Shown here: positions 1 through 21,479 of the stretch, in pieces
How the letters are laid out: each line of letters starts with the position of its first letter
How positions within the stretch are numbered: position 1 is the first letter of the stretch
Origin: a virus
Length of the DNA stretch: 21,680 nt
IMG/VR virus record: IMGVR_UViG_3300030419_002466
Span: 1 to 21,680 of that record
Reading direction: 5' to 3' (one strand)
The notes under the pieces: model-generated
Told to the model about the DNA's origin: nothing
The model's database searches: none
What the model saw: only the letters and a program-made list of their open reading frames with translations
Translations under genes and position numbers: made by a program

Positions 1-1100
1 CTGTAAAAACAGATAGCTTGGGCAGAAAGTGGATAAGTTGGATCAATACACCACAAACGACATTACAAGAAATGGATGTTGCAGGTAAGTTTGTTTTTGT
101 AGGTGTAACTGCTAATGGTGTAATGCCACAAATAGCTACACCTGTTGGTTTATTAGAACCACATAAGATTCAAACTGCACTTGCTGAATCAATATTAATA
201 CAAGATAGTCCTTATATACCTGATTGGGCAATAAGTATTGAGCTGTTAATACTTATAATTACAGTTATTTTAATATGGTTTATATTAATTTATTTAGGTA
301 TTACTTGGGGAATAACATTAGGATTTCTAGTTATGTTTATAACAGGATTTACTGGATATTATTTAATACAAAAAGGTTTATTAGTTGATGTTACTTGGAC
401 TTTAATATCTCAATTTATTACAGGTTCTATAGCATTTTATTTAAGATTTAGAGAACAATATAAATTAAGACAACAAATTAAAAAACAATTTGAACATTAT
501 CTTGACCCAAGACAAGTAAAACAATTACAAGATAATCCTGAACTTTTAAAATTGGGTGGAGAAAGAAAGTATTGTACTTTTCTTTTTACAGATGTTAGAG
601 GTTTTACAAATTTATCAGAACGATTAGAGCCAGAAGAAGTAACAGAAATTATGAATAAGGCTTTAACTATACAAGCAAATGCAGTTAAAAAGTATGGTGG
701 TATGGTAGATAAATATATTGGTGATGCCATGATGGCTATATTTAATGCACCGATTGATTTATCAAATCACGAAACTTTAGCTGTATTATGTGCCATAGAA
801 ATAAAAGAACAAATGCAACAGGCTAATCTTGGTATTGATATAGGTATAGGAGTTAATACTGGTGATGCTGTTATAGGCAATATGGGAAGTGAAAGTAGGT
901 TTGATTATACTGCTATAGGTGATGCAGTTAATTTAGCAGCTAGACTAGAAAGTTCTACAAAGGAAGTAGGTGAAGATATTGTTATTGGATATAATACTAT
1001 TCATGTAGAAAATTTTAGTTCTGATATATCATTAAAGGAATTAAAAAGTATTTATGTTAAAGGTAAGGAAAAACCAATAAACATATATACTGTATATTAA
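1..1100 (+). CDS. CHASE2-domain membrane adenylate cyclase, class III (5' end outside window)
   Basis: This protein should convert ATP to cyclic AMP at the inner membrane. The frame is open to the left edge (codons readable from base 3), so the gene is 5'-truncated; a TTG at 18 is only an internal codon. In order: the end of a CHASE2 sensor domain (GKFVFVGVTANG, about 91-126, then a Pro/Leu-rich stretch), three membrane spans (about 228-445), a linker, and a class III cyclase domain (about 570-1000). All canonical residues are visible: metal-binding Asp in FTDVRGFT (591-593) and in IGDAMMA (723-725), adenine-selecting Lys in VDKYIGD (711-713) and Asp in FDYTAIGD (903-905), and transition-state Asn and Arg in VNLAAR (930-932, 942-944). 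The Lys/Asp pair predicts ATP rather than GTP. It ends 12 bases before the lysis genes on the same strand. The domain call is firm; the role in a phage is unknown. A host gene at a phage boundary is possible but less likely given the tight spacing. Confidence 0.9.
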   Translation, partial: VKTDSLGRKWISWINTPQTTLQEMDVAGKFVFVGVTANGVMPQIATPVGLLEPHKIQTALAESILIQDSPYIPDWAISIELLILIITVILIWFILIYLGITWGITLGFLVMFITGFTGYYLIQKGLLVDVTWTLISQFITGSIAFYLRFREQYKLRQQIKKQFEHYLDPRQVKQLQDNPELLKLGGERKYCTFLFTDVRGFTNLSERLEPEEVTEIMNKALTIQANAVKKYGGMVDKYIGDAMMAIFNAPIDLSNHETLAVLCAIEIKEQMQQANLGIDIGIGVNTGDAVIGNMGSESRFDYTAIGDAVNLAARLESSTKEVGEDIVIGYNTIHVENFSSDISLKELKSIYVKGKEKPINIYTVY

Positions 1101-2254: not shown

Positions 2255-4123
2255 ATGGCATTTGCAAAGTTTGTATTTAAACCGGGAATAAATAAAGAAG
2301 GAACTAATTTTTCTAATGAAAATGGCTGGTTTGATTCAGATAAAATTAGATTTAGAAAAGGCAGACCAGAAAAAATAGGTGGTTGGCAAAAACATTCTGT
2401 TAATACTTTTCAAGGAACTTGTAGAAAAATTCATATATATAAAGATATAGAACAAAGTCAATATAAGATATTAGGTACACATAAAAAACTTTATGGATTA
2501 CAAGGAAATGTATATAACGATATAACTCCTATAAGAAGTACTACATCAGCAGGAGATGTAACATTTGCAGCAACAAATGGAAGCTCAACTATTACAGCAA
2601 CTGATACTTCGCATGGTGCAGTAAAAGGAGATTTTGTTACATTTAGTGGTGCTGCTACTTTAGGTGGTTTGATAACTGCTAATGTACTTAATCAAGAATA
2701 TGAAATAGCTTCAGTGCCTTCTGATAATACATTTACTTTTACAGCAAAAGATACAGACGGAGAAGAAGTTACAGCTAATAGTAGTGATAGTGGTAATGGT
2801 GGTTCTTCAGTTGTAGGAACTTATCAAATAAATGTTGGACTAGATGTATATGTAGCATCAACAGGTTGGGGTGTAAGTGCTTGGGGTTCAGGTGGATTTG
2901 GCTCAACAAAATCTTTATCTTTAACTAATCAATTAAGATTATGGACTATAGATAATTTTGGAGATGATGTTATAGCAGCACCTAGAGGTGGTCCTTTATA
3001 TTACTGGGATGAATCTAGTGGCTTATCAACAAGGGCAGTATTAGCAAGTTCAAGAAGTGGTGCAAGTGATTGTCCTGTTGCTTTATCACAGTTATTAATG
3101 TCTGATATTGACCGCCATGTTATAGCATTAGGTTGTAATACTATAGGCTCATCTACTATTGACCCATTATTAGTTAGATGGTCAGATTCTGAAAATGCAG
3201 TTGATTGGACACCTACAGCAACAAATTCTGCTGGTGGTGTAAGATTATCTACAGGTAGTTTAATAATAGGTGCTTTGCAAACTAGACAAGAAATACTTAT
3301 ATGGACAGATGTTGGTTTAGTTTCAATGCGTTTTGTAGGACAACCTTTTATATTTAGCTTTAATGAAATAGCAACAGGTATGTCTTTAGTATCTCCAAAT
3401 GGTGCAGCTACTGCAGGTGGAGTAGTTTACTTTATGGACGATGGAGCTTTTTATCAATACGCAGGTTCAGTACAAAAATTACCATGCACTGTATTAGATT
3501 ATATATTTAGTGATTTTAATAAAGGACAAGCATTTAAAGTTTTTGCTGCTGCCAATCCAAAGTTTAATGAAATAATTTGGTTTTATCCAAGTTCTGATTC
3601 TGAAGAAATAAACAGATATGTTACTTATAACTATTTAGAAAATAATTGGAGCATTGGAACAACAAATGATGGATTTGTAAGAACAGCTTGGAATCCAGCT
3701 TATAGTTTAGATTATCCTGTAGCTGCTAGTAAAAACGATTCAAGTGATACAAATTATTTATACGACCAAGAGTTTGGATGTTTAGCAGATGGAAGTGGAT
3801 TTACAGCTTATATAGAATCATCTGATTTTGATTTAGACCCAGCAGGAGAAAAGTTTATGTTTATGTCTAAACTAATACCAGATTTAGAATTTAGAAAATC
3901 ATCTGATACAGGTAATACAGTTGACTTTATAATTAAAGGTAGGGATTATCCTTTACAAGATTTATCTACATTATCTACAACCTCTGTAACACCTAGTTCT
4001 ACATTTGCAAATATTAGAGGTAGAAGCAGACAAAGTGCTATAAGAGTTAGCAATTCTTCTGGTAATTTTGGTTGGAGATTAGGAGATATAAGATTGGAAT
4101 TAAGACAAGATGGTAAAAGATAA
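2255..4123 (+). CDS. Tail structural protein, nozzle/hub candidate (P22 gp10-like)
   Basis: This 622-residue protein is probably a virion protein closing or extending the portal/tail tube. The N-terminus (KFVFKPGINKEGTNF, then DKIRFRKGRPEKIGGWQK) is a pattern I associate with DNA-stabilisation/tail-nozzle proteins of podoviruses. Residues about 95-190 form a Thr/Ser/Gly-rich module (SHGAVKGDFVTFSGA ... SDNTFTFTA) seen as an insert in many phage structural proteins. The rest is beta-rich with repeated aromatic and Gly turns, consistent with a propeller-like fold. It starts 2 bases after the endolysin stop and ends in a TAATG overlap with the next gene. The structural role is likely; the exact tail position is inferred. 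Confidence 0.6.
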   Translation: MAFAKFVFKPGINKEGTNFSNENGWFDSDKIRFRKGRPEKIGGWQKHSVNTFQGTCRKIHIYKDIEQSQYKILGTHKKLYGLQGNVYNDITPIRSTTSAGDVTFAATNGSSTITATDTSHGAVKGDFVTFSGAATLGGLITANVLNQEYEIASVPSDNTFTFTAKDTDGEEVTANSSDSGNGGSSVVGTYQINVGLDVYVASTGWGVSAWGSGGFGSTKSLSLTNQLRLWTIDNFGDDVIAAPRGGPLYYWDESSGLSTRAVLASSRSGASDCPVALSQLLMSDIDRHVIALGCNTIGSSTIDPLLVRWSDSENAVDWTPTATNSAGGVRLSTGSLIIGALQTRQEILIWTDVGLVSMRFVGQPFIFSFNEIATGMSLVSPNGAATAGGVVYFMDDGAFYQYAGSVQKLPCTVLDYIFSDFNKGQAFKVFAAANPKFNEIIWFYPSSDSEEINRYVTYNYLENNWSIGTTNDGFVRTAWNPAYSLDYPVAASKNDSSDTNYLYDQEFGCLADGSGFTAYIESSDFDLDPAGEKFMFMSKLIPDLEFRKSSDTGNTVDFIIKGRDYPLQDLSTLSTTSVTPSSTFANIRGRSRQSAIRVSNSSGNFGWRLGDIRLELRQDGKR

Positions 4124-4326
4124 TGGCAGATAAAAGTTCAATGCCATTACCTTTAGCTAGACCTGAATATGATGAGTTAAATGAATCTATTGCTAGAAGA
4201 ACAATAGAGCAAACTTTTCAAGATATAAATTCAGATATAGGAAATTCAAAAAGAAAACAAGATAGTGTAAGTAGCAAAGCTATAAGAAGACATCAATTTT
4301 TATTAATGGGAGTTACAGGTGGCTGA
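4123..4326 (+). CDS. Small conserved phage protein, virion-operon associated
   Basis: This 67-residue protein starts with the A shared by the TAATG junction of the upstream tail gene and overlaps the next gene by 8 bases. It has a Pro-containing N-terminus (SMPLPLARPEYDELNESIARRTIEQTF) followed by a charged helical region and ends in a short hydrophobic tail (FLLMGVTGG). I recognise the general 'PLPLARPEYDELNE..ARRTIEQ' style from marine podovirus structural operons but know no function for it. A small connector, chaperone or assembly factor would fit the position. It has no membrane span or metal motif. Confidence 0.6.
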   Translation: MADKSSMPLPLARPEYDELNESIARRTIEQTFQDINSDIGNSKRKQDSVSSKAIRRHQFLLMGVTGG

Positions 4327-4657
4327 TAGTTTAAAAGTATTAGGACAAGTTGACCCAGCAGCTACTACTACTACAGTACTTTATACTGTACCAGATAAGA
4401 CTCAAACAACAGTAAGTTCAATAGTAGCTGCAAATAGAACAGGCTCTGCAATAACATTTAGATTAAGTGTTCATGTTGGTGGAGCAACTGCAGATGATAA
4501 ACAATATCTTTATTATGATAAATCTGTAGCAGCAAACGATTCATTAACCATTGTAATAGGTATAACTTTAAATCAAACAGATGTATTAAAGGTTTATACC
4601 AGTGCAGTAGATATGAGTTTTAATATATTTGGTTGTGAAACAACCGAGGAAAGATAG
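4319..4657 (+). CDS. Small beta-rich virion protein
   Basis: This 112-residue protein uses a GTG start (GTG GCT GAT) overlapping the previous stop; GGGAG lies just upstream. The sequence has the pattern LGQVDPAATTTTVLYTVPDK ... VSSIVAANRTGSAITFRLSV, which recurs in small tail or capsid-decorating proteins of marine phages: a beta-sandwich with a conserved 'NR.G....FR' strand. The C-terminal half (LKVYTSAVDMSFNIFGCE) is also beta-rich. It lies between the tail candidate and the large Pro-rich virion protein, and the downstream ATG begins immediately after its stop. A structural role is likely, its location in the particle unknown. Confidence 0.65.
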   Translation: MADSLKVLGQVDPAATTTTVLYTVPDKTQTTVSSIVAANRTGSAITFRLSVHVGGATADDKQYLYYDKSVAANDSLTIVIGITLNQTDVLKVYTSAVDMSFNIFGCETTEER

Positions 4658-7198
4658 ATGGATATAAAACAACAAACTAGAAATGTAGCAGCACAAGGTC
4701 GTTATGGCGATAATATGTTACTTCATGTTAATCCTGTAGAAATGCAAGGGTTAGCATCTGTAATGCCATTAACAAAAAATCCACAAACAGGACAGCCTGA
4801 AGCTTTCTTACCTTTTCTAGCACCACTATTAGGTAGTATGGCGGGTACTGCTTTATTTACAGGTTTAAGCCCAGCTGTAGCTGGTGCTTTAGGTTCTGGT
4901 ATAGCTAGTACAATTCAATCAGGAGATTTAAAACAAGGCATTATATCTGGTGTAACAGGGTTTGGTTTAGGTAAAGCATTTGGTGCTGCAGGTATAGGAG
5001 AAGCTGGAAGAACAGCAGGAGAAGCTGCTACAACTGCAGCAGAAACAGTTGCTAATGTTTCACCTGAAGCTTTAACAGAAACACTAACAAGACAAGCTGC
5101 AGCAACAACACCTATGTTAGGAAATACTCCTATAGATTTATCAAGTGCTGCAAGTGGCACTACTGAAGCTGTAGCCAAAGGCGGATTAGATGCTTTTGCA
5201 TCACAACTAGCTAAACCTAGTTCTTATTTACCAGTTGCTATGGGAGAAGGAACTATAGGTACTATGCAGGCACAAGAAGATTTTGAAAGAGCCATGAAAG
5301 AATATGAGCTTAATAAAGAAAAAAGAGAAGAAGAATTATATGCTATGTATCCAGAACAAATACCAATGAGCAGTCCATATTACTATGGTAAGCAAGGTGG
5401 AGTTATTGGTATGCAAGAAGGTGGAGAAGTTTCTGATGAAGAAAAAAGCGTAAGTTTTCTACCCGGAAAAGGAAGATTAAGAAGACCACCTGTAGATAGA
5501 TTACAGCCACCACCACCACCACCACCTGTCGGTAGTTTTGAAGCTGCTATGTCTGGTGGTCTTGATGCTTATTACACACCGCCTGTTCAATTATCTGCAC
5601 CAGTAACAGCAGAAGCTGTGCCTGTAATAGACCCAATGACAGGTATGCCTATGTTAGATGCAGAAGGAAATCCTATACCATCAGGACAATTTAAACCATC
5701 TGCTAATTACAGACCCGGTATTGACCCAGAGTTTAATTACTTACCCGGTGGTAATAGAAGTGCTTCATCTTTAACAGGTTTAGGTAATTATCTTGGACAA
5801 ATGGGCACTAATTTAGGTGGAACAAACCCTTATAGTCCTTATATAGCAGCTGAAATATTAGATAGTCCTATAGGCGAAAGATTTATGAGTAGGATGGAGC
5901 CTAATAGATTTAATTTTGATGAAAGAGAATTTGGTCCTAGTATGTTTGATAATATTGATTTATCTTTAAATCAAGATGCAATAAATAATTATTCTGTAAG
6001 AAATAATACTATGCGAGAGCCTATAACAAATCTTATTGAAAGACCTTATATGCCACCTATTCGTGATGATTTTATGTCTATAGATAGAATTGGTAATTTT
6101 GATGAACCTATGCTTATGGATAGAACTGATATTGCTGATAAGAAAAGTATTCGTGAAGCATTAGCTGAATCTATGGAAAGTCCTACAAAAACTCCAGTAA
6201 TGCCCCTAGAAATGCCACTAGAAATGCCACCAATGAGAGAAGTTCCACAAGAAGACTTTGGTTTTGGTCCGGGTATAAGGCGTTCAGAAGATTTCTTTAG
6301 ACCAGAAGAATTAATGATGCCACCAATGGCACCACCAGTACCACCAATGGCACCACCAGTACCACCCCTAGAAGATATTGGATTTGGTCCCGGCATAAGG
6401 CGTTCAGAAGATTTTTTTAGACCAGAAGAAATGATGCCACCAGTACCACCTATGATTCCAAAGTCCCTGTTCAATCAGCATAGAACACAACCTGTAATGC
6501 AAGCACCACAAGCTCCTAGAACAGGCGGCATACCAGTAACAGGCGGTGGACCATTAGGTAGTGGTATTTTACCCATAGCTAATTTACCGACAGGACCAGT
6601 AGCACCACCAACAAATATAGGTATGCAAATACCAAATACTTCTATAGGTGGCATAAATGCCATACCACAACCAATACCAGAGTTATCTAATCCATTTTTA
6701 GAATTACCTCCATTAGATATGCGTGATGATTTTATGTCTATAGATAGATTAAATAATTCTCCTTTTAGAATGGAAGCTGGAGGTATGACACCTAGCCCAG
6801 ATGAAATACAAAAAGTACAAATGGCTATACTAGGACAAATAGAGAATAACGAACAAGTTATTGATATGTTTGTAGAAAAATATGGCAACGAAATGTTTAT
6901 GATGATAAGAGAACAAATATTAAATCCAGAAGGAAATGCACAGACACAAGGAATGATAGAAGGTATGGGTAGTGGAATGGATGACCAAGTGTTAGGAATG
7001 ATTGGTAGTCAACAACCTGTAGCTGTATCTCCCGGTGAGTATATTGTACCAGCAGATGTTGTATCAGGATTAGGAGATGGTTCTTCTGATGCAGGTGCAA
7101 AAGAACTTGATGGTTTATTAGATAGAGTTAGACAAGAAAGAACTAATACTACTAAACAACCAAAGGAATTAAATAAAGGCAAGGTGTTACCTAAATGA
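4658..7198 (+). CDS. Large Pro/Gly/Met-rich virion protein with internal repeats
   Basis: This 846-residue protein is probably a minor or internal virion protein. Residues about 45-115 are hydrophobic and Gly/Ala-rich (FLAPLLGSMAGTALF, SGVTGFGLGKAFGAAG), suggesting membrane interaction. A charged helix (FERAMKEYELNKEKREEEL) follows, then a poly-Pro run (about 5507-5528). The long middle is low-complexity and Pro/Met-rich with duplicated modules (GPGIRRSEDFFRPEE twice, DDFMSIDR twice). The C-terminus (about 705-820) carries QPVAVSPGEYIVPADVVSGL followed by a GDGSSDAGAKELDGLLDRVR-like helix, a module I recognise from structural proteins of marine podoviruses. It starts right after the preceding stop and overlaps the GNAT-like gene by 4 bases (ATGA). 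It is not an enzyme by any visible motif. Confidence 0.65.
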   Translation: MDIKQQTRNVAAQGRYGDNMLLHVNPVEMQGLASVMPLTKNPQTGQPEAFLPFLAPLLGSMAGTALFTGLSPAVAGALGSGIASTIQSGDLKQGIISGVTGFGLGKAFGAAGIGEAGRTAGEAATTAAETVANVSPEALTETLTRQAAATTPMLGNTPIDLSSAASGTTEAVAKGGLDAFASQLAKPSSYLPVAMGEGTIGTMQAQEDFERAMKEYELNKEKREEELYAMYPEQIPMSSPYYYGKQGGVIGMQEGGEVSDEEKSVSFLPGKGRLRRPPVDRLQPPPPPPPVGSFEAAMSGGLDAYYTPPVQLSAPVTAEAVPVIDPMTGMPMLDAEGNPIPSGQFKPSANYRPGIDPEFNYLPGGNRSASSLTGLGNYLGQMGTNLGGTNPYSPYIAAEILDSPIGERFMSRMEPNRFNFDEREFGPSMFDNIDLSLNQDAINNYSVRNNTMREPITNLIERPYMPPIRDDFMSIDRIGNFDEPMLMDRTDIADKKSIREALAESMESPTKTPVMPLEMPLEMPPMREVPQEDFGFGPGIRRSEDFFRPEELMMPPMAPPVPPMAPPVPPLEDIGFGPGIRRSEDFFRPEEMMPPVPPMIPKSLFNQHRTQPVMQAPQAPRTGGIPVTGGGPLGSGILPIANLPTGPVAPPTNIGMQIPNTSIGGINAIPQPIPELSNPFLELPPLDMRDDFMSIDRLNNSPFRMEAGGMTPSPDEIQKVQMAILGQIENNEQVIDMFVEKYGNEMFMMIREQILNPEGNAQTQGMIEGMGSGMDDQVLGMIGSQQPVAVSPGEYIVPADVVSGLGDGSSDAGAKELDGLLDRVRQERTNTTKQPKELNKGKVLPK
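6062..6088 (+). repeat. 27-bp direct repeat, copy A (inside virion gene)
   Basis: A 27-base word encoding RDDFMSIDR recurs without change at 6722-6748, exactly 660 bases away, so the reading frame is kept. Synonymous sites are identical too, which suggests recent duplication or conversion. Confidence 0.85.
6251..6430 (+). repeat. Paired 60-bp direct repeat flanking a Pro-rich spacer
   Basis: Bases 6251-6310 and 6371-6430 encode nearly the same peptide (FGPGIRRSEDFFRPEE) and differ at few positions. They are exactly 120 bases apart, in frame. The spacer is Pro/Met-rich. The arrangement looks like an in-frame expansion of a structural linker. Confidence 0.8.
6320..6361 (+). repeat. Perfect 21-bp tandem repeat, two copies (PPMAPPV)
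   Basis: The 21-base unit at 6320-6340 is repeated exactly at 6341-6361, encoding two copies of the seven-residue PPMAPPV. Being a multiple of three it can expand or contract without a frameshift. A third partial unit follows. Confidence 0.85.
6722..6748 (+). repeat. 27-bp direct repeat, copy B (inside virion gene)
   Basis: This is the second copy of the repeat at 6062-6088. The flanks differ (FDEPM after copy A, LNNSPF after copy B), so the identity is limited to the motif. Confidence 0.85.
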
Positions 7199-7683
7199 AT
7201 AATGTAGTTAAAATAGAAAAAAAACATAATAAAGTAAATTATGAAATTAATAAAAATCATATTGTTACATTAGTACCACATCATTACATAGGCACAATTT
7301 GGAATGATGTAGAAAAGTATTTACAAAAAGCAGTAGATAGGTCTAATGGAAGATGGAGTATTGAATCTTTAAAAGCTGCATTAGAACAAGGACAACAAGA
7401 ACTTTGGGTAATTTTTACAGAAGAAGATAATAATATAATAGGAACAGCTACTACTGAATTTATATACTATCCTGATAGTAAAAGAGTTGCAGTGCAATAT
7501 TTAGGTGGAGAAGATTTGCCTAACTGGGCATGGAATTATTTAAAAAAAGTAGAAGCTTGGGCTAAAGATAATAACTGTGATGGTATAGAGTGCACAGCTA
7601 GATACGGAGTTTGGAAATGGCTAGGTAAATCTGGCTGGGAAAAAACTTATACAATATTTGAAAAGAGGTTTAACAATGGGTAA
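7195..7683 (+). CDS. GNAT-like acyltransferase within the virion operon
   Basis: This 162-residue protein resembles the GNAT (GCN5-type) N-acyltransferases carried by many phages, which would transfer an acyl group from acyl-CoA to an unknown substrate. The core reads ELWVIFTEEDNNIIGTATTEF (beta strands before the CoA loop), then RVAVQYLGGED, a helix WNYLKKVEAWAKDNNCDGIECTARYG, and a terminal KWLGKSGWEKTYTIFEKRF, which matches the strand-helix order and 'LGKSGWEK' ending of the fold. The classic Q/RxxGxG/A loop is not obvious, so enzymatic activity is uncertain. The start overlaps the previous stop by 4 bases (ATGA), and its 3' end overlaps the next gene by 8. It may modify a virion or host protein. 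Confidence 0.6.
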   Translation: MNNVVKIEKKHNKVNYEINKNHIVTLVPHHYIGTIWNDVEKYLQKAVDRSNGRWSIESLKAALEQGQQELWVIFTEEDNNIIGTATTEFIYYPDSKRVAVQYLGGEDLPNWAWNYLKKVEAWAKDNNCDGIECTARYGVWKWLGKSGWEKTYTIFEKRFNNG

Positions 7684-8590
7684 AGGAAGAAGTAGTGGAA
7701 GCAGTGCTCCACAACAAACAGAAGTAACACAAACAACTACTAATTTACCAGAATATGCACAGCCATATTTTACTAGGTTATTAGGTAGAACTGAATATGA
7801 GTCTTTAAATCCATATAGAACTTATACTGGTCAAAGACTTGCAGAAAGAAGTCCACAGGCACAACAAGTAGCAGCAAGACAGACAGCTTTAGGATTAGCA
7901 GGTGCCCCTAGAGAAATGGCAGAAGCATCAGAACTAGCTAGAACAAGTGTAGTAAATCCACAAAGATTTGATACTGGAATAGCTAGTATGTATATGAATC
8001 CGTTTCAAAGTTTAGTTTCTGATATAGAACAAAGAGAAGCAAGAAGGGCATCTGATATTACAGGAGAGCAAATAGAATCAAGGGCTGCACAATCAGGTGG
8101 TTTAGGTGGTTATCGTGAAGCTATATTGCAATCTGAACGACAAAGAAATTTAGGTCAACAGCTAGGTGATATAGAAGCTAGAGGACAAAGAGATGCTTTT
8201 GCACAAGCACAACAACAGTTTGAAAGAGATAGAGCTAATCAATTAAATGCTGCAAGACAACAATTAGCATCTGCAGAATTTTTAGGAAGACAAGCTCCAA
8301 TGCAACAGAAGTTAGCTTTTGATAGATTATCACAAGCACAACAAGCACAAGAAGTAGGAAGAAACTTTAGACAAGCTGGATTAGATATGGCTTATAAAGA
8401 TTTCTTAAACCAAATAGCTTACCCAAGACAACAGCTAGGATTCTATGGACAGATATTACAAGGCTTACCTGTAACACCGGGAACACAAATTTCACAATAT
8501 GCACCTACTCCATCAGGCACACAACAGTTGTTAGGTCTTGGCTTGGGTGGATTAGGTTTATACAAAGCTTTACAAGGTGGATTAGGATAA
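7676..8590 (+). CDS. Coiled-coil internal virion protein candidate
   Basis: This 304-residue protein is predicted to be a structural or ejection protein. After a flexible Ser/Gly N-terminus (MGKGRSSGSS) comes TNLPEYAQPYFTRLLGRTEYES, then long Gln/Arg/Ala-rich helices (about residues 110-245, for example SERQRNLGQQLGDIEARGQR), and a Gly-rich hydrophobic C-terminus (GLGLGGLGLYKALQGG). This composition is common among internal virion proteins next to giant ejection proteins. ATG 7676 is preferred over the TTG at 7658 because AGAGG sits upstream of it. It overlaps the GNAT-like gene by 8 bases. No catalytic motif is visible. Confidence 0.6.
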   Translation: MGKGRSSGSSAPQQTEVTQTTTNLPEYAQPYFTRLLGRTEYESLNPYRTYTGQRLAERSPQAQQVAARQTALGLAGAPREMAEASELARTSVVNPQRFDTGIASMYMNPFQSLVSDIEQREARRASDITGEQIESRAAQSGGLGGYREAILQSERQRNLGQQLGDIEARGQRDAFAQAQQQFERDRANQLNAARQQLASAEFLGRQAPMQQKLAFDRLSQAQQAQEVGRNFRQAGLDMAYKDFLNQIAYPRQQLGFYGQILQGLPVTPGTQISQYAPTPSGTQQLLGLGLGGLGLYKALQGGLG

Positions 8591-8611
8591 TAAATATTAA
8601 AGGGTTAATAC

Positions 8612-9814
8612 ATGAATATAATACAACAAGAAGATAAATTAAAATCATTACCAGATAGTAACCTAGAAAATGAAATGGTTAATCCTACGGGTATGTTCCC
8701 ACAGTATTTAGTTATGTCTGAAATACAACGCAGACAAGAAATGCGTAAAGACTATGAAGGTCGTATAGCAGCTAATGAAAAGACTCCACCACTTCCATCA
8801 ATGCGTGAGCAAATGATGGCAGGTATAACTCAACAACCCCCAATGATGCAGGACAGCGGAATAGCAGGATTACTACCAGCTCAACCACAAAGGGCACCAA
8901 TACCACCAGCTATGCCCGCTGGTCCTGATGCAATACCTATGTATGGTGGTGGAGTTGTGCGTATGCAAAATCTTGGAGAAGTGCCTAATCCTTATGATGT
9001 GCTTTTAAAACAATTAAGAGAAAAAACAGAAGAAGAAAAAGAATTTGATAATCTTTATGAAGAACTAATGGCAGAACAACCTGAAAAATTAAGAGAAGAA
9101 AAAGAATTTTCAGATGGTTTAAATCTTATGAAAGCAGGATTAACACTAGGAACAGCTGGTACATTTAAAGAGTTAAGTTCAGGATTAGAAAAAACTATAA
9201 ACAGTATAGATGCAAGTAATAAAGCTATATCTGAAAAGAAAGATAAAATGAAAAAGCTACAATTAGAAAAAGCTAAACTTGATATTGACCGAGAAGCAAA
9301 AATAAAAGATAGAGAGCTTGATATAATTAAATCTAAAGATACAGCTGAAAGTATGAAAGATATGTATTTATCTACTGCAGTAAAAACTTCAAAATATTTA
9401 CAAAGCCCAGAAGGTCAAGCATTAAAAGTAAGTAATCCTACTTTATATGAAACTGTTAAGGATAGTATAGATAAATCTTCTGCTGGAAGTGATTGGTTTA
9501 CAGAATTAAAAACAAAAAGAGGAGCAGAAATATTAGCTAGTTATGATGCAAGTCTAGGAGGTACAATAACGCTAGATAATGAAATAAAAAACTTGTATAA
9601 CGATGAAAATTTAGTAATAACAAATGACATGAGAGATAAATATATAAGCGATAGAGTATCAGCTCAATTAAAAAGAGATATAAGTATATTAACTGGAGCA
9701 ATTCCAGAGTTAATAGCTTTAGAAGCTAAAGTTCCAGAACAACAATATTCTGGTGGAGTAGTTGGCAAATCAGTTCAAGATTTTAATGATGTAGTTAAAA
9801 TAATAAATGGCTAG
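8612..9814 (+). CDS. Helical internal/ejection virion protein candidate
   Basis: This 400-residue protein is helical and charged. The N-terminal segment DSNLENEMVNPTGMFPQYLVMSEIQRRQEMR is a recurring pattern in virion proteins of marine podoviruses. A Pro/Met-rich stretch (about residues 55-115) follows, then a long Lys/Glu coiled coil (about 130-250). The remainder is helical with no recognised catalytic site. An AAAGGG site precedes the ATG at 8612. It overlaps the giant gene by 8 bases (ATGGCTAG), so the two are probably coupled, and both may be carried inside the capsid. The function is inferred from position and composition. Confidence 0.6.
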   Translation: MNIIQQEDKLKSLPDSNLENEMVNPTGMFPQYLVMSEIQRRQEMRKDYEGRIAANEKTPPLPSMREQMMAGITQQPPMMQDSGIAGLLPAQPQRAPIPPAMPAGPDAIPMYGGGVVRMQNLGEVPNPYDVLLKQLREKTEEEKEFDNLYEELMAEQPEKLREEKEFSDGLNLMKAGLTLGTAGTFKELSSGLEKTINSIDASNKAISEKKDKMKKLQLEKAKLDIDREAKIKDRELDIIKSKDTAESMKDMYLSTAVKTSKYLQSPEGQALKVSNPTLYETVKDSIDKSSAGSDWFTELKTKRGAEILASYDASLGGTITLDNEIKNLYNDENLVITNDMRDKYISDRVSAQLKRDISILTGAIPELIALEAKVPEQQYSGGVVGKSVQDFNDVVKIING

Positions 9815-12800
9815 GCTAGTTACCACAAGTACTGGAACAGTATATGAGTTGCCTGATGAAGCAACAGATGAAGATGTTCAAGCATTTTTAGAAAGACATA
9901 ATAAACTTATATCAAATCCCGAAGAGTTCTCTTCACAACCCCAACCCCAAGAAAAAAATTTTTTGGATAATCCTTTTAAAAGTCCAATATCACCAAAAAG
10001 ATTGCAGTATGGAGCTGCAGAACTTGGTGTGGATATAGCAAAATCTTTAGGCAGAACATTTACAGGTCAATCTTTAGCACCTGATTACGAAGGTAGCAGA
10101 GGTTTAATAGCAAGACAAACTGAAGGTGATTTTAAAAGAGATAATATGTCTAATATTATAAAACAAGGTTTAAGTGGATTAAACCAAATAGGTATTCAAA
10201 GACAAAAAAATAGAGATGAAAGTATAGAAAGAGAAATAATTGCAGATTACAACGCATTATCTTCTAAAACAAATAAGACTGATAAAGATAAAGAAACATT
10301 AAATAATTTAACTAAATTAATATTTGGACAAAAGTTATCAGATGAAGAACAAAAAATTGCAGAAGAAGAATATTTAGATAGTAAAAGAGAATATGGAGGT
10401 TTGTTGCCTAGAGGTACCAGAGCATATGATGAAGATAATCCAATTACTACTCCAGATAATTTAATAATAGATGCAAATAGTAGGTATCAAAAACAAGGAT
10501 ACTTTACATATAAAGGTCAAAAAATACCAACCATAGGTTTAAATAAAAAAAGAGAATTAGATAATGAAGCAATAGCTAAATCAATAAAGTTTCAAGGACA
10601 GTTTGATAAAAACAAACCTTTTACAGATATAACAAGTAATCCTGATGCTACAACAGATGAAATATTAGATACTTTTTTTCAAGACCCCATAGGAATAATG
10701 AGTCAAACTGTTGCTTCAAGTTTTGGTCCAATGGCTATTTCATTATCTGCTGGTATAGGAACAACTTTAGCTACTAGAAACCCTATAGCTGGTTCTGCAG
10801 CTACAGGTATTGCTTCTGGTTGGGTAGATACTCTTTATTCTTCTGTAGAATTTATGAGAAAAAATGGTGTAAATGTTAATGATGAAAGAGCTATAGTAGA
10901 TTTTTTAGAAAATGAAAATAATAGAGAAAGACTTAAAAAATATACAAGAACAAGAGCAACATTTATAGGTGGTTTTGATGCAATAGCTTATGGTGTTGCA
11001 AGTAAATTTTTTCCTTCAGAACGATTAGTTTCTAATTTATCTCAAAGACACGCTTTAAACTCTCTTATTCAAATGCCAGCACAAGGAGCTTTAGGTGGAG
11101 GTGGAGAATATTTTGCACAACTATATACTTTGGAGCCGGGAGAAAGAGTAAGAAGAGGAGATGTATTTTTAGAAGTTATTGGTGAGTTAGCTTTTGCACC
11201 TATAGAAGCTTCAATGGCACAAGCTGCTGCATATTCAGGTAGTAAAGGAGATGCTAAAAGAAGAGCTATTGAAGAAGAATTAAGAGGTGCTGAAGAATTA
11301 AGAAATTTAATAAATGATTTACCAGAAGGTAATGCACAAAGACAAAATTTACAAACAGAAATAGAACAGGTATATAAAAGAATATTAGAACAAAATCCTA
11401 ATATGTCTAAAATAGATGCAAAGAAATTTGCAGAAATAGAAGTTTATAAAAATCAAAAAAATACAGAAACTTCTACAGGTTATAAATTAGCTACATTAAA
11501 AGCATATGACATATTAAAAGAAAGTAATTTTGATTTAACAAAAACAAGTTTTGATAATAAAGAAATAGATAATATTTTTGTCAGTAGTGATATTAAAAAT
11601 GGAACTCCAAATCAAGATGGAGATTTTATAATAAATGATTACAACGGAAATGAAGTTGCTAGATTTAAAGATTTACAATATGCATCAGATGTATTAACAC
11701 AACTACAAAGTATAACTCGTAGATATAATAATATAAATAAAGCACAAGAAGGTGCAATTATGGGTAATGTTGATTACACAGACCCATTTGTTCAAAATTT
11801 AGCAGATAGATTTTTTAATATATATAATGATGTTGTAGAGCTATCAGTATTAGAAGACTTAAATATTCCTGAACAAGCTTTAGAAGAGATAAAAACTATT
11901 TATCCAAGTTCTGAAATAATACCTTTTTCTATATTAAAAGATACATTATCTAAATCTCAATTTGATAAAGTTATAAATGCACAACTATATGGAATTAATC
12001 CTAACGCTAAAAAACAAAAGTCTATATCAATAAAACAAATTAATAACTTATTAAATTCTAAAAATATAATTGATGATGTAAATTCAGATAGCTTTAAAAG
12101 ATTTGCTGAAACAATAACTTTAGAAAAAGATATAAATAAAATGAGCATAGCTCAAAAAAGATTGTTATATGGTTTTATAGAATTATTACCAGAAGCAAAT
12201 ACAGAAATAAACTTTCCAGATTTTACACAAAGACCTTACAGCATAAATGAATATTCAGTAGCTTTTGAAAAATTAGAACAGTTAGATATAGGACAAACTG
12301 TTTCAATAGAAATGTTACAAGATGCTACAGGATTAAATAAAAATATTGTAAAAAGATTAAGACAAGAATTTATTAATGCTGGTTACATAAGTCCTGACTT
12401 TAAATACAAAGGAACAGGTGGTAGAAAGTATGCATATGATGGAACTATTTTGCCTGAATATAATATTAATACTTCTGAAAAAATAGATAAGATTAATAAA
12501 TCGTTTGACAAATATGCAAAAAAATTAAATTTAAAAAATACAAAAATTAGATTTAAAAGTTTTTTTGATTCTGTAAGACATAAGGGTAATAAAGATTTTG
12601 AAAATGCAGAAGGAGTATTTGACTCTAGTATTAATAAAATAATTCTTCCGTTAGATGAAGCAGGATTAAATGTATTAAAAGATAATCCTAAACAATTTAG
12701 AAAAAATATAGCTGCAGTTTTAGGACATGAAAGTGCTCATGCTTTACAAGAATTTGATTTATATACACAGCAAGAACAAAATGCAAAAGAAAAATATGTA

Positions 12801-15800
12801 AAAAATACAATAAGAAAAAATAATAAAACATATTATGAAGAAGCTTTAGAACGATATAGACCAAATAATATTCCTAAACCGGGATATGAAAGTGAATCTT
12901 CTATAATAGAAGAAGCTTTTAATAAAGTAATTGAAGACCATATAAATAAAAAACCTATTACTGGAAGACCTGCTTTAATTGCAAATAAAACATTAAATTT
13001 TTTTCAAGCACTAGGTAATGCTTTATTGGATAATGGATTTATTACGGCACAAGATATCATAGAAGATTCATTATCAGGAAGAATAGGTTCAAGACCTGCT
13101 GGACAAATAAGAACTAACTTATTTGCTGAAAGACAATTTGGTATTACAGAGCCAGTGCCTACTGTAACAGATGTTCAAGTAAGTGATGAGCCAGATATTT
13201 TATATAGTATAAATTCTTCAAATGAAAAAATAGCTAATGAATTAAAAAATAAAATAGAAGTAACAAGACAAGGAACAGAATCAAATAAAAGAATTTGGAG
13301 TCCTATTTTAGATACAAATATTAATAATATAATTCAAAATTATTTTATTAAATTAAGAAACAATCTTAATAATTCTGCTCTTAAATTAGATGCTACTTAT
13401 AAAAATTTAATAGATTTAGTTAATAATGAAAATAATGAAATAAGAAAAAATATTCCAACATCTGATAATACATATATAAATGCTATATTTAAAATACAAC
13501 AAAGTAGTCAAAGTTTATTTGCAGTAACACAAGAATATTTGCAAAATGCAAATATAGAAAATAAAAAATTGTTTGAAGATTATTCATTTGGAACAGAAAG
13601 AAGAGGTTATTATCAGGGATATGTTATAGGAGAAACAAACTTAAATAAAAATATAGATAATTTAGTTGTATATAAAGATTTTAGTGATGCTAAAGAAAGA
13701 GCAGAAGCTGTTCAAGCAACCCAAACTGGTTATCAAAAATATGTAGGAAATAATGAAGGACCAAATAATACAACACAGTATGTAACTCCAATTCTTTTTA
13801 AACCACAATCTATATTATTAAATCCATTACTAATTAGTTCTGAATTTATATATTCACAACAACCTGAAAATATTACAGGTGATGGTGTTCCAACCCTTGA
13901 AAATTTAAAAAAAATATTTGTAGATAATCCATATAGAAAAAAATCTTTAATATTAAAAAATAGTAATAATCCTCAAAATTTAATTTTATTTCATAATAAA
14001 AGACAATCAGTTGAAACAGCTGCACCAGTTATAAATCCATCTGAAGATGGTAACAGTTTTGCTAGAGGTTTAAAGTTACAATATTCTTTAAGGGAAACTA
14101 ATGCTAGATTAACTGATGAAACTAAAAAAACATTAGAACGACAGTCAGGTGCACCTTCATTAGAAGAATATTTTGCAGAACTATATGGAGCTAATGAATA
14201 TACTACTACTTCTATTTACACTGAACAGCCTTTATTAAAAGATTTTAAAAAGATACCAAAGAATATAAGAGAGTTTTTAACTGATGGTAGAGGATATGGT
14301 TCAGAATATATAGCACCATTAATGAGCATGGGTCCTGCAGCTTTTGTAGCAAACAGAGTAAAATCTGATTCACCTATTTTTGGTTTTAGTTATCCACAAG
14401 ATTTAACTGTTAAAGAAGCACAACAAATTTATGATGCTGTAAATATTATTACAGAACAATCTATATCATTATTTCCTGATGAAATATTAGTTTATAGAGG
14501 TAGTGCTATAGATGATAGTTACAATTTAATACCTGCAACTACTAATAAATTTATAGCAGAATCATTTGGAAAATCTATAAGAAAAAGAGATAAAAGAATA
14601 GAAGAAGAATATTACAATAAAAAATTATATCAACAAGATATTAGTTTATTAGATTTTCAAGCATCAATAGAAGGTTTGCGTGCTACTCCACAACAGATAG
14701 CCAAGTATGGTTATAATGTTAAAAAATTCCTTTTACCAAAAGAAGCTATAGCAATAAACATGGAAGCTTTATATGCAGGTACAAGCATAATACCTTATAC
14801 AGAAGGTGATGTTATATTTACAACAGGTATAAATAATATTTATAACTATCAAGGAGAACAAGAACTTGTAATTTCTCAACAATTTTTAATAGACCCTGAA
14901 ACAACAAATAATTTAGGTAGAGAAGTAATAACTACACATCTTGCTGATGTTGCTAATGAATTACAAGAAAGAATAGTATTAGAAAAAAGATTTGAAGAAG
15001 CTGTAACAGATAATTTAGGTAGAGAAATAAACTTAACACAAAAGGAATTAATAGAATTAAAGCAAGATTTATTTAAATTAGCAGTTCAACCAAAATTTCA
15101 AAAACAAAATATAGCTGTAGAAGATTTATATGAATTAGTTTTGCACCCAGCTATGTTGGCTACACAAGAAGAAGCTATTTATATTTCTGATGTTTATGAT
15201 AATTTAACTGAAGCACAAAGAACTAAAAGAATAAATAAAATGCGACCTGAATTAATTAGGATAGCTGAAGAATATGCAGGTGGTAATTTAAAATTTGATA
15301 GAAAAGCAGTAATAGTAATTGGACCACCGGGTACAGGTAAGTCAACATTTGCAGAAGATATAGCAGCAAGAAAAGGTTATGCAATAATTGATGCAGATGA
15401 TGTTAAAAAACAAATGAAAGAATATAGAAAAGGTGTTGGTGCTAATGCTACACATAAATTTTCTAAAGTAGTTTCTAGTAGAATTGCAAAAGAGTTTATA
15501 GATGAAGGTGCAAATATAATACTGCCAAAAGTTACTGGTAAATCAGATTATCGTAGGCAACCAGACCAAACAAAACTAAATGATTTAATTTTAACTATAG
15601 AAAATTTACAATCTAAAGGATACAAAGTAGATATTGTTTATCCAGATGCAAATATTAATCAAGCTATTGTTAGAAATGTTACTAGGTTTGCTGAAACAGG
15701 AAGATTCGTACATCTTGGATATTTATTATCAATAGATAATAAAGTAAGAGATACTTATAATGCATTAAAAAAACATTTTAATGCTGATACTACAGATAAT

Positions 15801-18743
15801 GTAGGGTTTACTTACATTAATAATAACTACAAAATAGGAGAACAAATTGTCGAAGAAGATACCGCCCAATTATTTCAAGACGATAGAATCGTTGATAGAA
15901 ATAGAAGTAGAAGCAGAAAAGATAGCAGAGGAAATGCACAAAAAATCACCCAAGAAGAATCCGCCCTTATTGAAATTGCTGAAGAGCAAAAACAAACCTC
16001 AATAGCAGCAGGTGTAACGCCTGTAATAAATACTAATGCTTCCCCTAGTGCTGTAGCAACTGCAGTAAAAACACAACAAGAAATAAAAAATACACCAGCT
16101 GAAAATAATGCAGATGTAGATTCTATTCTTGCTGATATACCAGATGATATTAAATTAAAATATTCATTTAACAAAAGCGATAAACCTTTAAATAAAAATG
16201 CTGAAGATTTAATAGAAAATTTAACAGTAAGAGATGACACTATTGAAAATAAAACTGCCGGTCAACTTATATTAGAAAGCTTTAAACCTATTGATGCTAC
16301 CAAAGAATTTGGTATGAAAGTTAGAGAATCTATTGCAGATAGGTATGGAAGATTAGCACAAACAGATGTTAAAGCAGGAAGAAAAAATAAATATGGAGAT
16401 AAGATGTTACTTGCTAGTATGTCAGCAGGTGCAGCTTTATATTTTTCTGATAGGTCAGGTGATATATTCATGCAATCTTTTATTAGAGGATTTCCTCGTT
16501 ATGATAAAGATAAAGGATATACTTATGTAACTGACATATCACAAATAGATGGTAAACCTGTCATTCCTTTTGCTGACATATTTGCACCAGCTTATAAACA
16601 ACCTAATTTACTTTGGGCATTTCAAGCTGTAATGAGAGTTAAAAGAGAAACAAGATTTAATAAAGAAGGTAGAAAAGTAAAAGTAACAGCAGCCGATAGA
16701 AAAAAAGCTAAACAAGTATTACAAGATTATCCTGAAATACAAACTATGATTGATGAATACAATAGAACTAATGAACATACAGTTCAATTTTTAGTTGACA
16801 CTGGTGTATTAGATTCAAAGACAGCAAAAATATGGTTAGAACATTCAGACTACATACCTTTTTATAGACCACTAGAAGGAATGGAAGGATTTAAAGGACC
16901 AAAAATATTTCAAGGATTATCTGTTACTCCATTTACAAAAGCAAAAGGTAGTGAAACAAAAGATATTGTTGACCCTATTACTGGTATTACAAATAATTTA
17001 AGAGCAGCTATAAATATAGGTATGAAAAATGTAGCAGCTAATAGAGTAATGCGTAATCTTTTAGATATAGGTGTAGCTAAACAAGTTAAAGGTAATGTTA
17101 AAGGACCAGATATAATTACCATAAGAGTTAAAGGAAAAAATACAAACTTTAAAGTAGATGACCCAATGTTATATCATTCAATAAGTGTAATGAGTCAAGA
17201 AGATTTTGCACCAGTTAATATGTTAATGAATATAGCAAGAGGTACTAAAAGATTTGTAAGTGATTTAATAACTAGAAATCCTGCTTTTTGGTTTAGACAA
17301 ATAGTAAGAGATTCTTTATCTGCTTGGACTTTAAGTGGTGCTAGATATGTTCCAATTATATCTTCTATTAAAGAAACTATAAGCATAGCTAAAGGTATGA
17401 TAACCGGCAAACTTCCAGAAGAGTTTGTTAAGTTAAGAAACGCAGGAATAATAACAGGATATGATAAAGGTGTAAGAGAAATAGATAGTACACAAAATCT
17501 TATTGATGGTTATTATAAAAATGCTTTTAAAAGTGAAAGACCATTAGCAGAAAAAGTTTATATGTTTCCTATAGATTTATTAACTACTCTTTGGGATATA
17601 TTAGGACAAGGCACAGCTATAACAGATGCTGCTACTAGAGTAGCTGTATATAAAGATACATTAAAAAGAACAAACAATGAAGCTGAAGCTATATTCCAAG
17701 CATTAGAAGTTTTAAACTTTACAAGGCGTGGTAATAATAAAACTTTTCAAACTTATACACAAATGGTAATGTTTTTAAATCCTAGACTGCAAGGACTAGA
17801 TGTTTTTTATAGAGGAATAACAGGAAGATATGGTATAGGTAAGGGTTTAAGTCCAGCAAAAAGAGCAAAGGCTGTATGGTTAAGAATGGCAACTATAATG
17901 TCTTTAGCACCAGCATATTATTTATTAGTAAGAGATTCAGAAGAATATGAAGAAGCAGATGATGTAATAAAAGATAACTATTTAATTGTTCCGGGAAGTA
18001 AAAAATTAACAGGTGGTTATCCAATAGCTATACCAAAACCTTTTGAAGTAGGACTATTAACTATGACTATTCCCGAAAGACTTACGGCTTACTTTATGGA
18101 TGATATAGCAGGTGAAGATGTAGCTACAAGAATTGGAAAAATGACACAACATACTTTTGCAATTACTCCGCCAACATTTGCTGACCCTCTTATAGAAAAC
18201 TTTGCTAATTATGATTTCTTTACAGGCAGACAAATAGTTCCTGATTATTTAAAAGGTACAGCAGATGTAGGTTATAGACCACAAACAGATACATTATCTA
18301 AAGTAATAGGAGATGAACTAAACATTAGTCCTTTGTATATAGAAAATATAATTAGAGGTTATGCAGGTACATTAGGTAGTTATATGATGATGGCAACAGA
18401 TAGTGTTTTAAAAGAAGGTTTAACAGGTGCAGAGAAACCTAAATTTGGAGCCGATAGACTTCCAGTTATAGGGACTTTCCTTTTAGCAAAAGAGGGTAGT
18501 GGTTTTGAAAATCAATTTTACAGCATGAAAAAAGATGTTGATAATTTAGTTTCAACATTTAGACAAATAGAAACTCAACTTGAAGATAGAGGAGATGAAT
18601 ATATTTTAGGTATGACTGATGAATATAAAATAGAATATATGGATGGTTTAAAAGATTTACAAAAAGATTTAGGGGAAGTAGCAGATGAATTAAAAGAGTT
18701 AAGAAATCTTGAAGCTATTATTATAAATGACAAAAATATGTAG
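9807..18743 (+). CDS. Giant multi-domain polyvalent protein (zincin, ART-like, zeta-toxin-like kinase)
   Basis: This 2978-residue protein is most likely injected with the phage DNA. Visible parts: N-terminal tag (MARLVTTSTGTVYELPDEAT); Gly/Ala hydrophobic region (about 297-342); possible winged helix (about 808-876); zincin with H974-E-S-A-H978, candidate third ligands E1035/E1036 and the following GNALLDNGFITAQDI...SGRIGSR segment typical of phage polyvalent proteins; ADP-ribosyltransferase-like region (about 1510-1700: VYR1564G, ATT 1577-1579, E1666-G-D1668); zeta-toxin-like kinase (GPPGTGKST 1839-1847, IDADD 1861-1865, RFAETGRFV 1960-1968); low-complexity linker (about 2015-2110); and a C-terminal region (about 2130-2960) with TRNPAFWFRQIVRDSLSAW (2489-2507), resembling LPD38-type phage-associated domains. 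Such fusions are known as polyvalent proteins. Kinase and zincin calls are good, ART moderate, winged helix weak. Confidence 0.85.
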   Translation: MARLVTTSTGTVYELPDEATDEDVQAFLERHNKLISNPEEFSSQPQPQEKNFLDNPFKSPISPKRLQYGAAELGVDIAKSLGRTFTGQSLAPDYEGSRGLIARQTEGDFKRDNMSNIIKQGLSGLNQIGIQRQKNRDESIEREIIADYNALSSKTNKTDKDKETLNNLTKLIFGQKLSDEEQKIAEEEYLDSKREYGGLLPRGTRAYDEDNPITTPDNLIIDANSRYQKQGYFTYKGQKIPTIGLNKKRELDNEAIAKSIKFQGQFDKNKPFTDITSNPDATTDEILDTFFQDPIGIMSQTVASSFGPMAISLSAGIGTTLATRNPIAGSAATGIASGWVDTLYSSVEFMRKNGVNVNDERAIVDFLENENNRERLKKYTRTRATFIGGFDAIAYGVASKFFPSERLVSNLSQRHALNSLIQMPAQGALGGGGEYFAQLYTLEPGERVRRGDVFLEVIGELAFAPIEASMAQAAAYSGSKGDAKRRAIEEELRGAEELRNLINDLPEGNAQRQNLQTEIEQVYKRILEQNPNMSKIDAKKFAEIEVYKNQKNTETSTGYKLATLKAYDILKESNFDLTKTSFDNKEIDNIFVSSDIKNGTPNQDGDFIINDYNGNEVARFKDLQYASDVLTQLQSITRRYNNINKAQEGAIMGNVDYTDPFVQNLADRFFNIYNDVVELSVLEDLNIPEQALEEIKTIYPSSEIIPFSILKDTLSKSQFDKVINAQLYGINPNAKKQKSISIKQINNLLNSKNIIDDVNSDSFKRFAETITLEKDINKMSIAQKRLLYGFIELLPEANTEINFPDFTQRPYSINEYSVAFEKLEQLDIGQTVSIEMLQDATGLNKNIVKRLRQEFINAGYISPDFKYKGTGGRKYAYDGTILPEYNINTSEKIDKINKSFDKYAKKLNLKNTKIRFKSFFDSVRHKGNKDFENAEGVFDSSINKIILPLDEAGLNVLKDNPKQFRKNIAAVLGHESAHALQEFDLYTQQEQNAKEKYVKNTIRKNNKTYYEEALERYRPNNIPKPGYESESSIIEEAFNKVIEDHINKKPITGRPALIANKTLNFFQALGNALLDNGFITAQDIIEDSLSGRIGSRPAGQIRTNLFAERQFGITEPVPTVTDVQVSDEPDILYSINSSNEKIANELKNKIEVTRQGTESNKRIWSPILDTNINNIIQNYFIKLRNNLNNSALKLDATYKNLIDLVNNENNEIRKNIPTSDNTYINAIFKIQQSSQSLFAVTQEYLQNANIENKKLFEDYSFGTERRGYYQGYVIGETNLNKNIDNLVVYKDFSDAKERAEAVQATQTGYQKYVGNNEGPNNTTQYVTPILFKPQSILLNPLLISSEFIYSQQPENITGDGVPTLENLKKIFVDNPYRKKSLILKNSNNPQNLILFHNKRQSVETAAPVINPSEDGNSFARGLKLQYSLRETNARLTDETKKTLERQSGAPSLEEYFAELYGANEYTTTSIYTEQPLLKDFKKIPKNIREFLTDGRGYGSEYIAPLMSMGPAAFVANRVKSDSPIFGFSYPQDLTVKEAQQIYDAVNIITEQSISLFPDEILVYRGSAIDDSYNLIPATTNKFIAESFGKSIRKRDKRIEEEYYNKKLYQQDISLLDFQASIEGLRATPQQIAKYGYNVKKFLLPKEAIAINMEALYAGTSIIPYTEGDVIFTTGINNIYNYQGEQELVISQQFLIDPETTNNLGREVITTHLADVANELQERIVLEKRFEEAVTDNLGREINLTQKELIELKQDLFKLAVQPKFQKQNIAVEDLYELVLHPAMLATQEEAIYISDVYDNLTEAQRTKRINKMRPELIRIAEEYAGGNLKFDRKAVIVIGPPGTGKSTFAEDIAARKGYAIIDADDVKKQMKEYRKGVGANATHKFSKVVSSRIAKEFIDEGANIILPKVTGKSDYRRQPDQTKLNDLILTIENLQSKGYKVDIVYPDANINQAIVRNVTRFAETGRFVHLGYLLSIDNKVRDTYNALKKHFNADTTDNVGFTYINNNYKIGEQIVEEDTAQLFQDDRIVDRNRSRSRKDSRGNAQKITQEESALIEIAEEQKQTSIAAGVTPVINTNASPSAVATAVKTQQEIKNTPAENNADVDSILADIPDDIKLKYSFNKSDKPLNKNAEDLIENLTVRDDTIENKTAGQLILESFKPIDATKEFGMKVRESIADRYGRLAQTDVKAGRKNKYGDKMLLASMSAGAALYFSDRSGDIFMQSFIRGFPRYDKDKGYTYVTDISQIDGKPVIPFADIFAPAYKQPNLLWAFQAVMRVKRETRFNKEGRKVKVTAADRKKAKQVLQDYPEIQTMIDEYNRTNEHTVQFLVDTGVLDSKTAKIWLEHSDYIPFYRPLEGMEGFKGPKIFQGLSVTPFTKAKGSETKDIVDPITGITNNLRAAINIGMKNVAANRVMRNLLDIGVAKQVKGNVKGPDIITIRVKGKNTNFKVDDPMLYHSISVMSQEDFAPVNMLMNIARGTKRFVSDLITRNPAFWFRQIVRDSLSAWTLSGARYVPIISSIKETISIAKGMITGKLPEEFVKLRNAGIITGYDKGVREIDSTQNLIDGYYKNAFKSERPLAEKVYMFPIDLLTTLWDILGQGTAITDAATRVAVYKDTLKRTNNEAEAIFQALEVLNFTRRGNNKTFQTYTQMVMFLNPRLQGLDVFYRGITGRYGIGKGLSPAKRAKAVWLRMATIMSLAPAYYLLVRDSEEYEEADDVIKDNYLIVPGSKKLTGGYPIAIPKPFEVGLLTMTIPERLTAYFMDDIAGEDVATRIGKMTQHTFAITPPTFADPLIENFANYDFFTGRQIVPDYLKGTADVGYRPQTDTLSKVIGDELNISPLYIENIIRGYAGTLGSYMMMATDSVLKEGLTGAEKPKFGADRLPVIGTFLLAKEGSGFENQFYSMKKDVDNLVSTFRQIETQLEDRGDEYILGMTDEYKIEYMDGLKDLQKDLGEVADELKELRNLEAIIINDKNM

Positions 18744-20702: not shown

Positions 20703-21048
20703 CATCTTCTCCATAATAAAAGTCATATTCCCATTCGTATTTAGGGTTATCGTGGTGTTGCCACATTAATTCATACTCTTGTTCAGCATAATCTCCTAAA
20801 GGCATACCCTCTTCTGTTTGTTCATCTAAAATAGGTTTAACTTCTTCCCAATTATGTATGTAATTAATAGGTAGATAATCGCCTATACACCCAAATATTT
20901 CCCATTCAATACCTTTCTTTGTGCCAATTCCCACATCAATAACTTCTTCTGTTGACCATTCTTCCGTTAGCCAATAGATTATGTCTATATTAAGTATCAT
21001 CTTTTTTTTAATTGGTTTTGTTTTTAATGCTTGTATTTTTTTACTCAT
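20695..21048 (-). CDS. Acidic protein of unknown function
   Basis: This 117-residue protein has a basic N-terminus (MSKKIQALKTKPIKKKMIL) and a very acidic, aromatic-rich remainder (YWLTEEWSTEEV, YELMWQHHDNPKYEWEYDFYYGEDDE). ATG 21048 is chosen because its ATGAGTAA overlaps the previous stop exactly as at the next junction; AGAGGAG lies farther upstream. An ATG at 21084 inside the HNH gene is less likely. The charge split suggests a protein that mimics or binds a nucleic acid-binding surface, but this is inference and no family is recognised. Confidence 0.6.
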   Translation of the reverse strand: MSKKIQALKTKPIKKKMILNIDIIYWLTEEWSTEEVIDVGIGTKKGIEWEIFGCIGDYLPINYIHNWEEVKPILDEQTEEGMPLGDYAEQEYELMWQHHDNPKYEWEYDFYYGEDDE

Positions 21049-21352: not shown

Positions 21353-21479
21353 TCTTTGATGTTTCCTCATAGACATTTTTAAGTTTGGTTATGTCTATTT
21401 TTTTTCTACCAAAAATCTTATCAAAGTTTTCATTAAACTTATCTCTGTCTTTAGTTCTATCTTTGCTACCCTTACTCAA
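21330..21479 (-). CDS. 49-residue basic mini-protein (SKGSK family)
   Basis: The frame starts at TTG 21479 (TTG AGT AAG GGT) with AGGA 7 bases upstream at 21487-21490. It gives MSKGSKDRTKDRDKFNENFD, then KIFGRKKIDITKLKNVYEET and a Lys-rich tail. The 'SKGSK.R.......F..N.D.IFG' pattern is one I recognise from short conserved proteins in early regions of podoviruses. Function unknown. The TTG overlaps the previous stop (TTGA), which supports coupling and the non-ATG start. Confidence 0.6.
   Translation of the reverse strand: MSKGSKDRTKDRDKFNENFDKIFGRKKIDITKLKNVYEETSKNDRKNKK

Follow-up and report, generated by a model that had tools for sequence, protein, structure and literature searches.

The window, that is, the whole stretch of DNA analysed here (21,680 bases, 31.6% GC), is one entire IMG/VR virus record. 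It encodes an endolysin, a head stabilization/virion structural protein (phrog_3287; positions 2255..4123, plus strand), which was used as the basis of the family tree, an ejection-protein-like gene, a large polyvalent protein of 2978 amino acids with LPD38 and a Zeta_toxin/AAA P-loop domain (9807..18743, plus strand), and an HNH protein (21041-21376); small genes lie on the opposite strand. Positions 3-1100 represent the 3' part of a CHASE2-adenylate/guanylate cyclase gene. In the 55.7 kb relative G002, for which FecR and the CHASE2-cyclase were annotated, genes for CsgG, FecR and this cyclase follow one another upstream of the lysis genes (contig L082, 5877-10200). CsgG was present in 13 of the 18 family records searched, and a comparable curli CsgG-FecR-cyclase module is found in some HTVC023P-type pelagiphages (PMC9599517). 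The relatives used for comparison (L002-L081) are IMG/VR contigs, and the longer ones (about 50-58 kb) encode TerL, a portal-like protein, a Mu gpT-like capsid protein, a Toprim/DnaB helicase and a Sak annealing protein. Their TerL is 57% identical to those of 023Pt_psg01 and DSL-LC04, 55% to that of HTVC027P and 53% to that of HTVC023P. The record covers only part of a podovirus genome of roughly 57 kb that is related to the HTVC023P-type pelagiphages; the relatives point to a marine origin, and the phage is probably lytic.

The sequence-only reading had claimed that the window contains no CCWGG site, and neither CCAGG nor CCTGG was found in it. Shuffling of synonymous codons, with proteins and codon usage kept fixed, led to an expectation of 11.8 CCWGG and 1.6 CCSGG sites, versus 0 and 12 observed; none of 300 shuffles matched these values, and none yielded a CCWGG count of zero. 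When the dinucleotides at the codon junctions were preserved as well, 11.1 CCWGG sites were expected, and the 8-9 sites estimated earlier were thus slightly too few. These two codon-level null models, together with shuffled-genome controls, rule out chance or base composition as the cause.

The dipeptide Pro-Gly always spells CCNGG, and therefore CCWGG can be lost there only via the codons CCC or CCG. Such forced dipeptides are a simple test for avoidance that is free of composition bias. Each of the 12 CCSGG sites in the window is an in-frame Pro-Gly on the plus strand, exactly at the positions listed before, and they are spread over four genes. One lies in the stabilization protein (CCGGG, 2282..2286, in the peptide FKPGIN), six are in an 846-aa protein (CCCGG at 5462..5466, 5714..5718, 5744..5748, 6389..6393 and 7031..7035, CCGGG at 6269..6273), one is in the ejection-protein-like gene (CCGGG, 8477..8481), and four are in the polyvalent protein (CCGGG at 11136..11140, 12879..12883, 15327..15331 and 17991..17995), the third of which falls into the P-loop GPPGTGKS of the Zeta_toxin/AAA domain. 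Before Gly, the ratio of CCA/CCT to CCC/CCG was 0/12, versus 95/3 before other codons that start with G (Fisher p = 1.3e-13), and a general preference for CCC or CCG, which would have spoken against avoidance, is thus absent (95 of 98 are CCA or CCT). The wobble base flips solely before Gly, and it flips toward the rarer codons, while relatives that tolerate CCWGG use the ordinary CCA or CCT in Pro-Gly. This supports the proposal that selection acts on the word CCWGG itself. Copies elsewhere in the genome did not turn up either, CCWGG being absent also from contigs L002, L003 and L004, which are 99% identical to the window (23 kb in total, about 7.5 kb of which lie upstream of the window). In the window, the wobble bases at Val-Thr, Ala-Ala and Gly-Pro correspond to the codon background and are no evidence on their own.

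At least ten further restriction-type words are equally absent from the window. Under the null that preserves junction dinucleotides, the observed and expected numbers were 0/32.5 for CTNAG and 0/17.8 for ACGT; GGCC (0/9.1), CAATTG (0/7.3) and several degenerate 6-mers are also missing. GCGC was not found versus 5-7 expected copies, and TCGA was found once versus 4-10 expected copies, the ranges reflecting the choice of the null. GATC has a single copy versus 32.4 expected. This copy (41..44) is probably an error at the contig end, because over its first 60 bases the window diverges from the 99%-identical L003 by about a dozen mismatches and two frame-compensating indels. If a Type II recognition word counts as avoided when its observed/expected ratio is below 0.1, CCWGG, CTNAG, GATC and ACGT are avoided. 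The earlier view that both the Dam-type and the Dcm-type word are avoided thus holds for the depletion of GATC and CCWGG, but not for a special link to Dam and Dcm, because CTNAG, ACGT, GGCC, GCGC and several 6-mers have been lost too. We take EcoRII to be the enzyme that corresponds to CCWGG, MboI to GATC, DdeI to CTNAG and HaeIII to GGCC.

The depletion is concentrated on palindromes, the pattern that Type II restriction should leave behind. Considering words with at least five expected copies, and 6-mers that are free of shorter depleted words, 4 of 15 palindromic 4-mers were absent from the window or below 10% of expectation, versus none of 120 non-palindromic ones. The respective values for 6-mers were 3 of 19 palindromes versus 6 of 1032 other words, and in G002 11 of 29 palindromes versus 7 of 1508 others were depleted. 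Shuffled genomes that were subjected to the same word selection yielded 0-1 depleted words. Counting against restriction as the cause, some depleted words are neither palindromic nor obviously restriction sites, e.g., AGGAGG-like words, ACCGT and GAGGC. The word counts are approximate, as the greedy lists overlap in part (in G002, e.g., several of the words contain ACGT) and probable non-restriction words are among them (AGGAGG, and A-tracts in T7).

The sets of missing words differ among the IMG/VR relatives, each of which has its own distinct set of 5-35 words; for the relatives of 55-58 kb the number is 18-35 per genome. For example, the observed/expected values are 0/96 for GATC, 0/32 for GCGC, 0/26 for GGCC and 0/26 for CTCTTC in G002, 0/118 for GATC, 0/50 for CCGC, 0/56 for GAACC and 1/63 for ACTGG in G009, and 0/131 for GATC, 0/60 for ACGT and 0/25 for GGGAC in G010. 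CCWGG is missing from the window, its 99% relatives and several other clades, is nearly gone in L007 (1/10) and L010 (2/8), and is present at expectation in L015 (12/13), L019 (13/14), L049 (10/9) and L066 (11/11). On the tree of 81 homologues of the stabilization protein the CCWGG state changed at least five times, compared to at least 11 times with shuffled labels. The Pro-Gly at 2282 is conserved in every one of the 81 homologues, and what tracks the CCWGG state is its wobble base alone: it is CCC or CCG in 29 of 29 genomes whose remaining Pro-Gly pairs are all CCS, and CCA or CCT in 11 of 12 genomes whose remaining pairs are all CCW. L022 has switched independently at Ala-Ala (0 W, 39 S; p = 1e-26), and so has L062 at Val-Thr (0 W, 25 S; p = 5e-15). 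In some other relatives Val-Thr occurs in both forms, e.g., 24/41 in G009, and therefore the switches are not always complete.

The loss of CTNAG exemplifies that turnover among relatives of 55-99% identity allows gains and losses to be placed on the tree. CTNAG is missing solely in the window and in the relatives that are 99% identical to it, and of the aligned sites of G005, 0 of 15 CTNAG survive in the window versus 54 of 113 AGCT (p = 1.6e-4); about half of the changes at the aligned sites are synonymous. As judged by these alignments, the loss occurred on the window's own branch. G001 (L100, L101; IMGVR_UViG_3300030060_001671) is mosaic. Its first 11-12 kb contain 37 GATC and 11 CCWGG sites, while the window-like 20 kb that follow contain no CCWGG and a single GATC, which lies at the distal end of the contig; the shift is abrupt and falls at about kilobase 11-13. 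Either an avoiding and a non-avoiding phage have recombined in nature, or the assembly of G001 is chimeric.

Modification of the phage's own DNA would make avoidance needless. No match to the C5 methylase, Dam and N6/N4 methylase domains (PF00145, PF05869 and PF01555) was found in 18 records; a divergent methylase could have been missed, and the window record represents only part of a genome. Methylation by these three methyltransferase families thus appears improbable as an alternative. The same 18 records yielded no match to thymidylate synthase (PF00303), and none to AIRS (PF00586), a search in which the purM annotated in HTVC027P went undetected as well.

The best explanation, and very probably the right one, is that Type II restriction enzymes of the hosts exerted purifying selection; one of these enzymes would be specific for CCWGG. 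Ancestors of the phage would repeatedly have encountered hosts with Type II restriction-modification systems, at least one of them cutting CCWGG (EcoRII/BstNI-type). Unmethylated phage DNA with a site would have been cut at entry, genomes with fewer sites would have left more progeny, and the sites would thereby have been purged, mostly through silent changes. At Pro-Gly the phage would have escaped CCWGG via the otherwise rare codons CCC and CCG, in all 12 pairs, and the same purging would have removed GATC, CTNAG, ACGT, GGCC, GCGC and several 6-mers.

Alternatively, the phage itself could be the source of the selection, if it made sequence-specific endonucleases for the degradation of host or rival DNA and lacked their sites for self-protection. 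The family indeed encodes, in addition to the HNH protein, a PD-(D/E)XK nuclease and a RusA-like resolvase. However, the nucleases that were found resemble recombination proteins, the 18-35 words per full-length genome would require about as many enzymes, and the word sets vary among relatives with the same gene order, which makes this origin very improbable. Slightly less probable still is mutational decay, i.e., that Dcm-type methylation by the host followed by deamination turned CCWGG into CTWGG without any restriction. CTAGG is mildly raised in the window (26 observed versus 16.5 expected), but CTTGG is not (29/25.5), and in G009 and G010 CTAGG occurs about as often as expected; deamination of methyl-cytosine was rejected in the absence of a consistent CTWGG excess. 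Decay also predicts a change from Pro to Leu, yet Pro-Gly stays and shifts to CCS, and at the conserved Pro-Gly at 2282 the CCWGG of relatives is aligned to CCSGG, not to CTWGG, in the avoiders. In addition, words to which the logic of C-methylation does not apply (CTNAG, CAATTG) have also gone. As improbable as decay is a putative modification-dependent enzyme (Type IV or IIM) that cuts phage DNA marked by an orphan Dcm or Dam methylase of the host: the same loss of CCWGG and GATC would be expected, but a methylase would be required for each lost word, and the avoidance of Type IV and IIM sites is only weak (Rusinov et al., 2018; PMC6286503). A preference for codon pairs, translation or structure instead of a DNA word, although such biases exist in general, is the least probable of all and is refuted as a general cause by the switching relatives: in some the same Pro-Gly pairs are all CCA or CCT (e.g., 12/0 in L015 and 13/0 in L019), and Ala-Ala (L022, 0/39) and Val-Thr (L062, 0/25) have switched independently.

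Avoidance of restriction sites by phages has been known for decades, and the usual reports concern one or a few words per phage. The elimination of Type II sites is established for non-temperate dsDNA phages (Rusinov et al., 2018; PMC6286503). Host restriction as the selecting force in the window's family would resemble these cases in the near-complete loss of short, mostly palindromic Type II words, which is expected mainly in lytic phages. It would differ from them in that many words have been lost together (10-35 in most family genomes), in sets that differ between close relatives, and in the visible wobble switch at word-forcing dipeptides. A comparison to T7-like phages had been drawn before; in the same pipeline the known avoidances of T7 were recovered (GATC 5/118, CCWGG 2/55). 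The resemblance is real, as GATC and CCWGG are depleted in both, but the window also lacks CTNAG, ACGT and GGCC, and none of its CCWGG sites survives. Kinship with T7 was not borne out: the T7-type (Autographiviridae) virion gene set was not found, and the structural genes match those of HTVC023P-type, Roseobacter CRP-901-type and DSL-LC04 phages.

Among these podoviruses the extent of avoidance varies. HTVC023P, HTVC027P and 023Pt_psg01 have virion genes in common with the window's family (TerL 53-57%), but in contrast to it only 1-3 depleted words. In 023Pt_psg01 (L123) CTNAG (1/91) and CATG (0/56) are depleted, and otherwise no avoidance is seen. That HTVC023P and HTVC027P, whose SAR11 host is known, show almost no avoidance speaks against host restriction as the explanation. 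None or few depleted words were found in HTVC027P, HTVC023P, DSL-LC04 and Ma-LMM01, and many in Planktothrix phage Pag-Yong1 and Pelagibacter phage HTVC008M (first 50 kb each) and in Roseobacter phage CRP-902; therefore, broad avoidance is not unique to the window's family. The first 50 kb of HTVC008M (L129) have 36 depleted words, including TCGA (0/34) and TCWWGA (0/51), although its SAR11 host is regarded as poor in restriction systems. CRP-902 (OQ401624, L122) is a distant relative of the window with 34% identity in one virion protein. Like the window it lacks CCWGG (0/48), all of its 22 Pro-Gly pairs are CCS, and 41 words are depleted; unlike the window it belongs to a different genome group, has a GC content of about 45% and a known host, the CHAB-I-5 strain FZCC0083. 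Restriction is not mentioned in the paper on CRP-902 (PMC10149686).

Alignment of TerL with genome contigs led to one cellular match only, which was 55% identical and lies on a contig assigned, perhaps through an error in binning, to a Planctomycetaceae MAG; no tRNA genes were found in the four longest genomes, and the homologues of the cyclase and CsgG indicated no single host.

Avoidance as a strategy is already known, but the number of words and the differing sets in relatives turn this family into a clean record of it in nature. Two features are unusual, namely how often the state has switched inside a single family and how cleanly the switches can be read at forced dipeptides; a limited search of the openly licensed literature returned no description of the latter. 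More tentatively, and with slightly less than an even chance in our estimation, the family could be a readable record of the restriction repertoire of its hosts, in which each lineage has its own purged set of up to about 35 words, forced dipeptides (Pro-Gly, Val-Thr, Ala-Ala) act as switches, and almost all copies change their wobble base jointly upon the gain or loss of a restriction specificity. If this is true, the lost words predict the restriction systems of uncultured hosts, and the words missing from the window are testable predictions of the restriction enzymes of its putative marine host.
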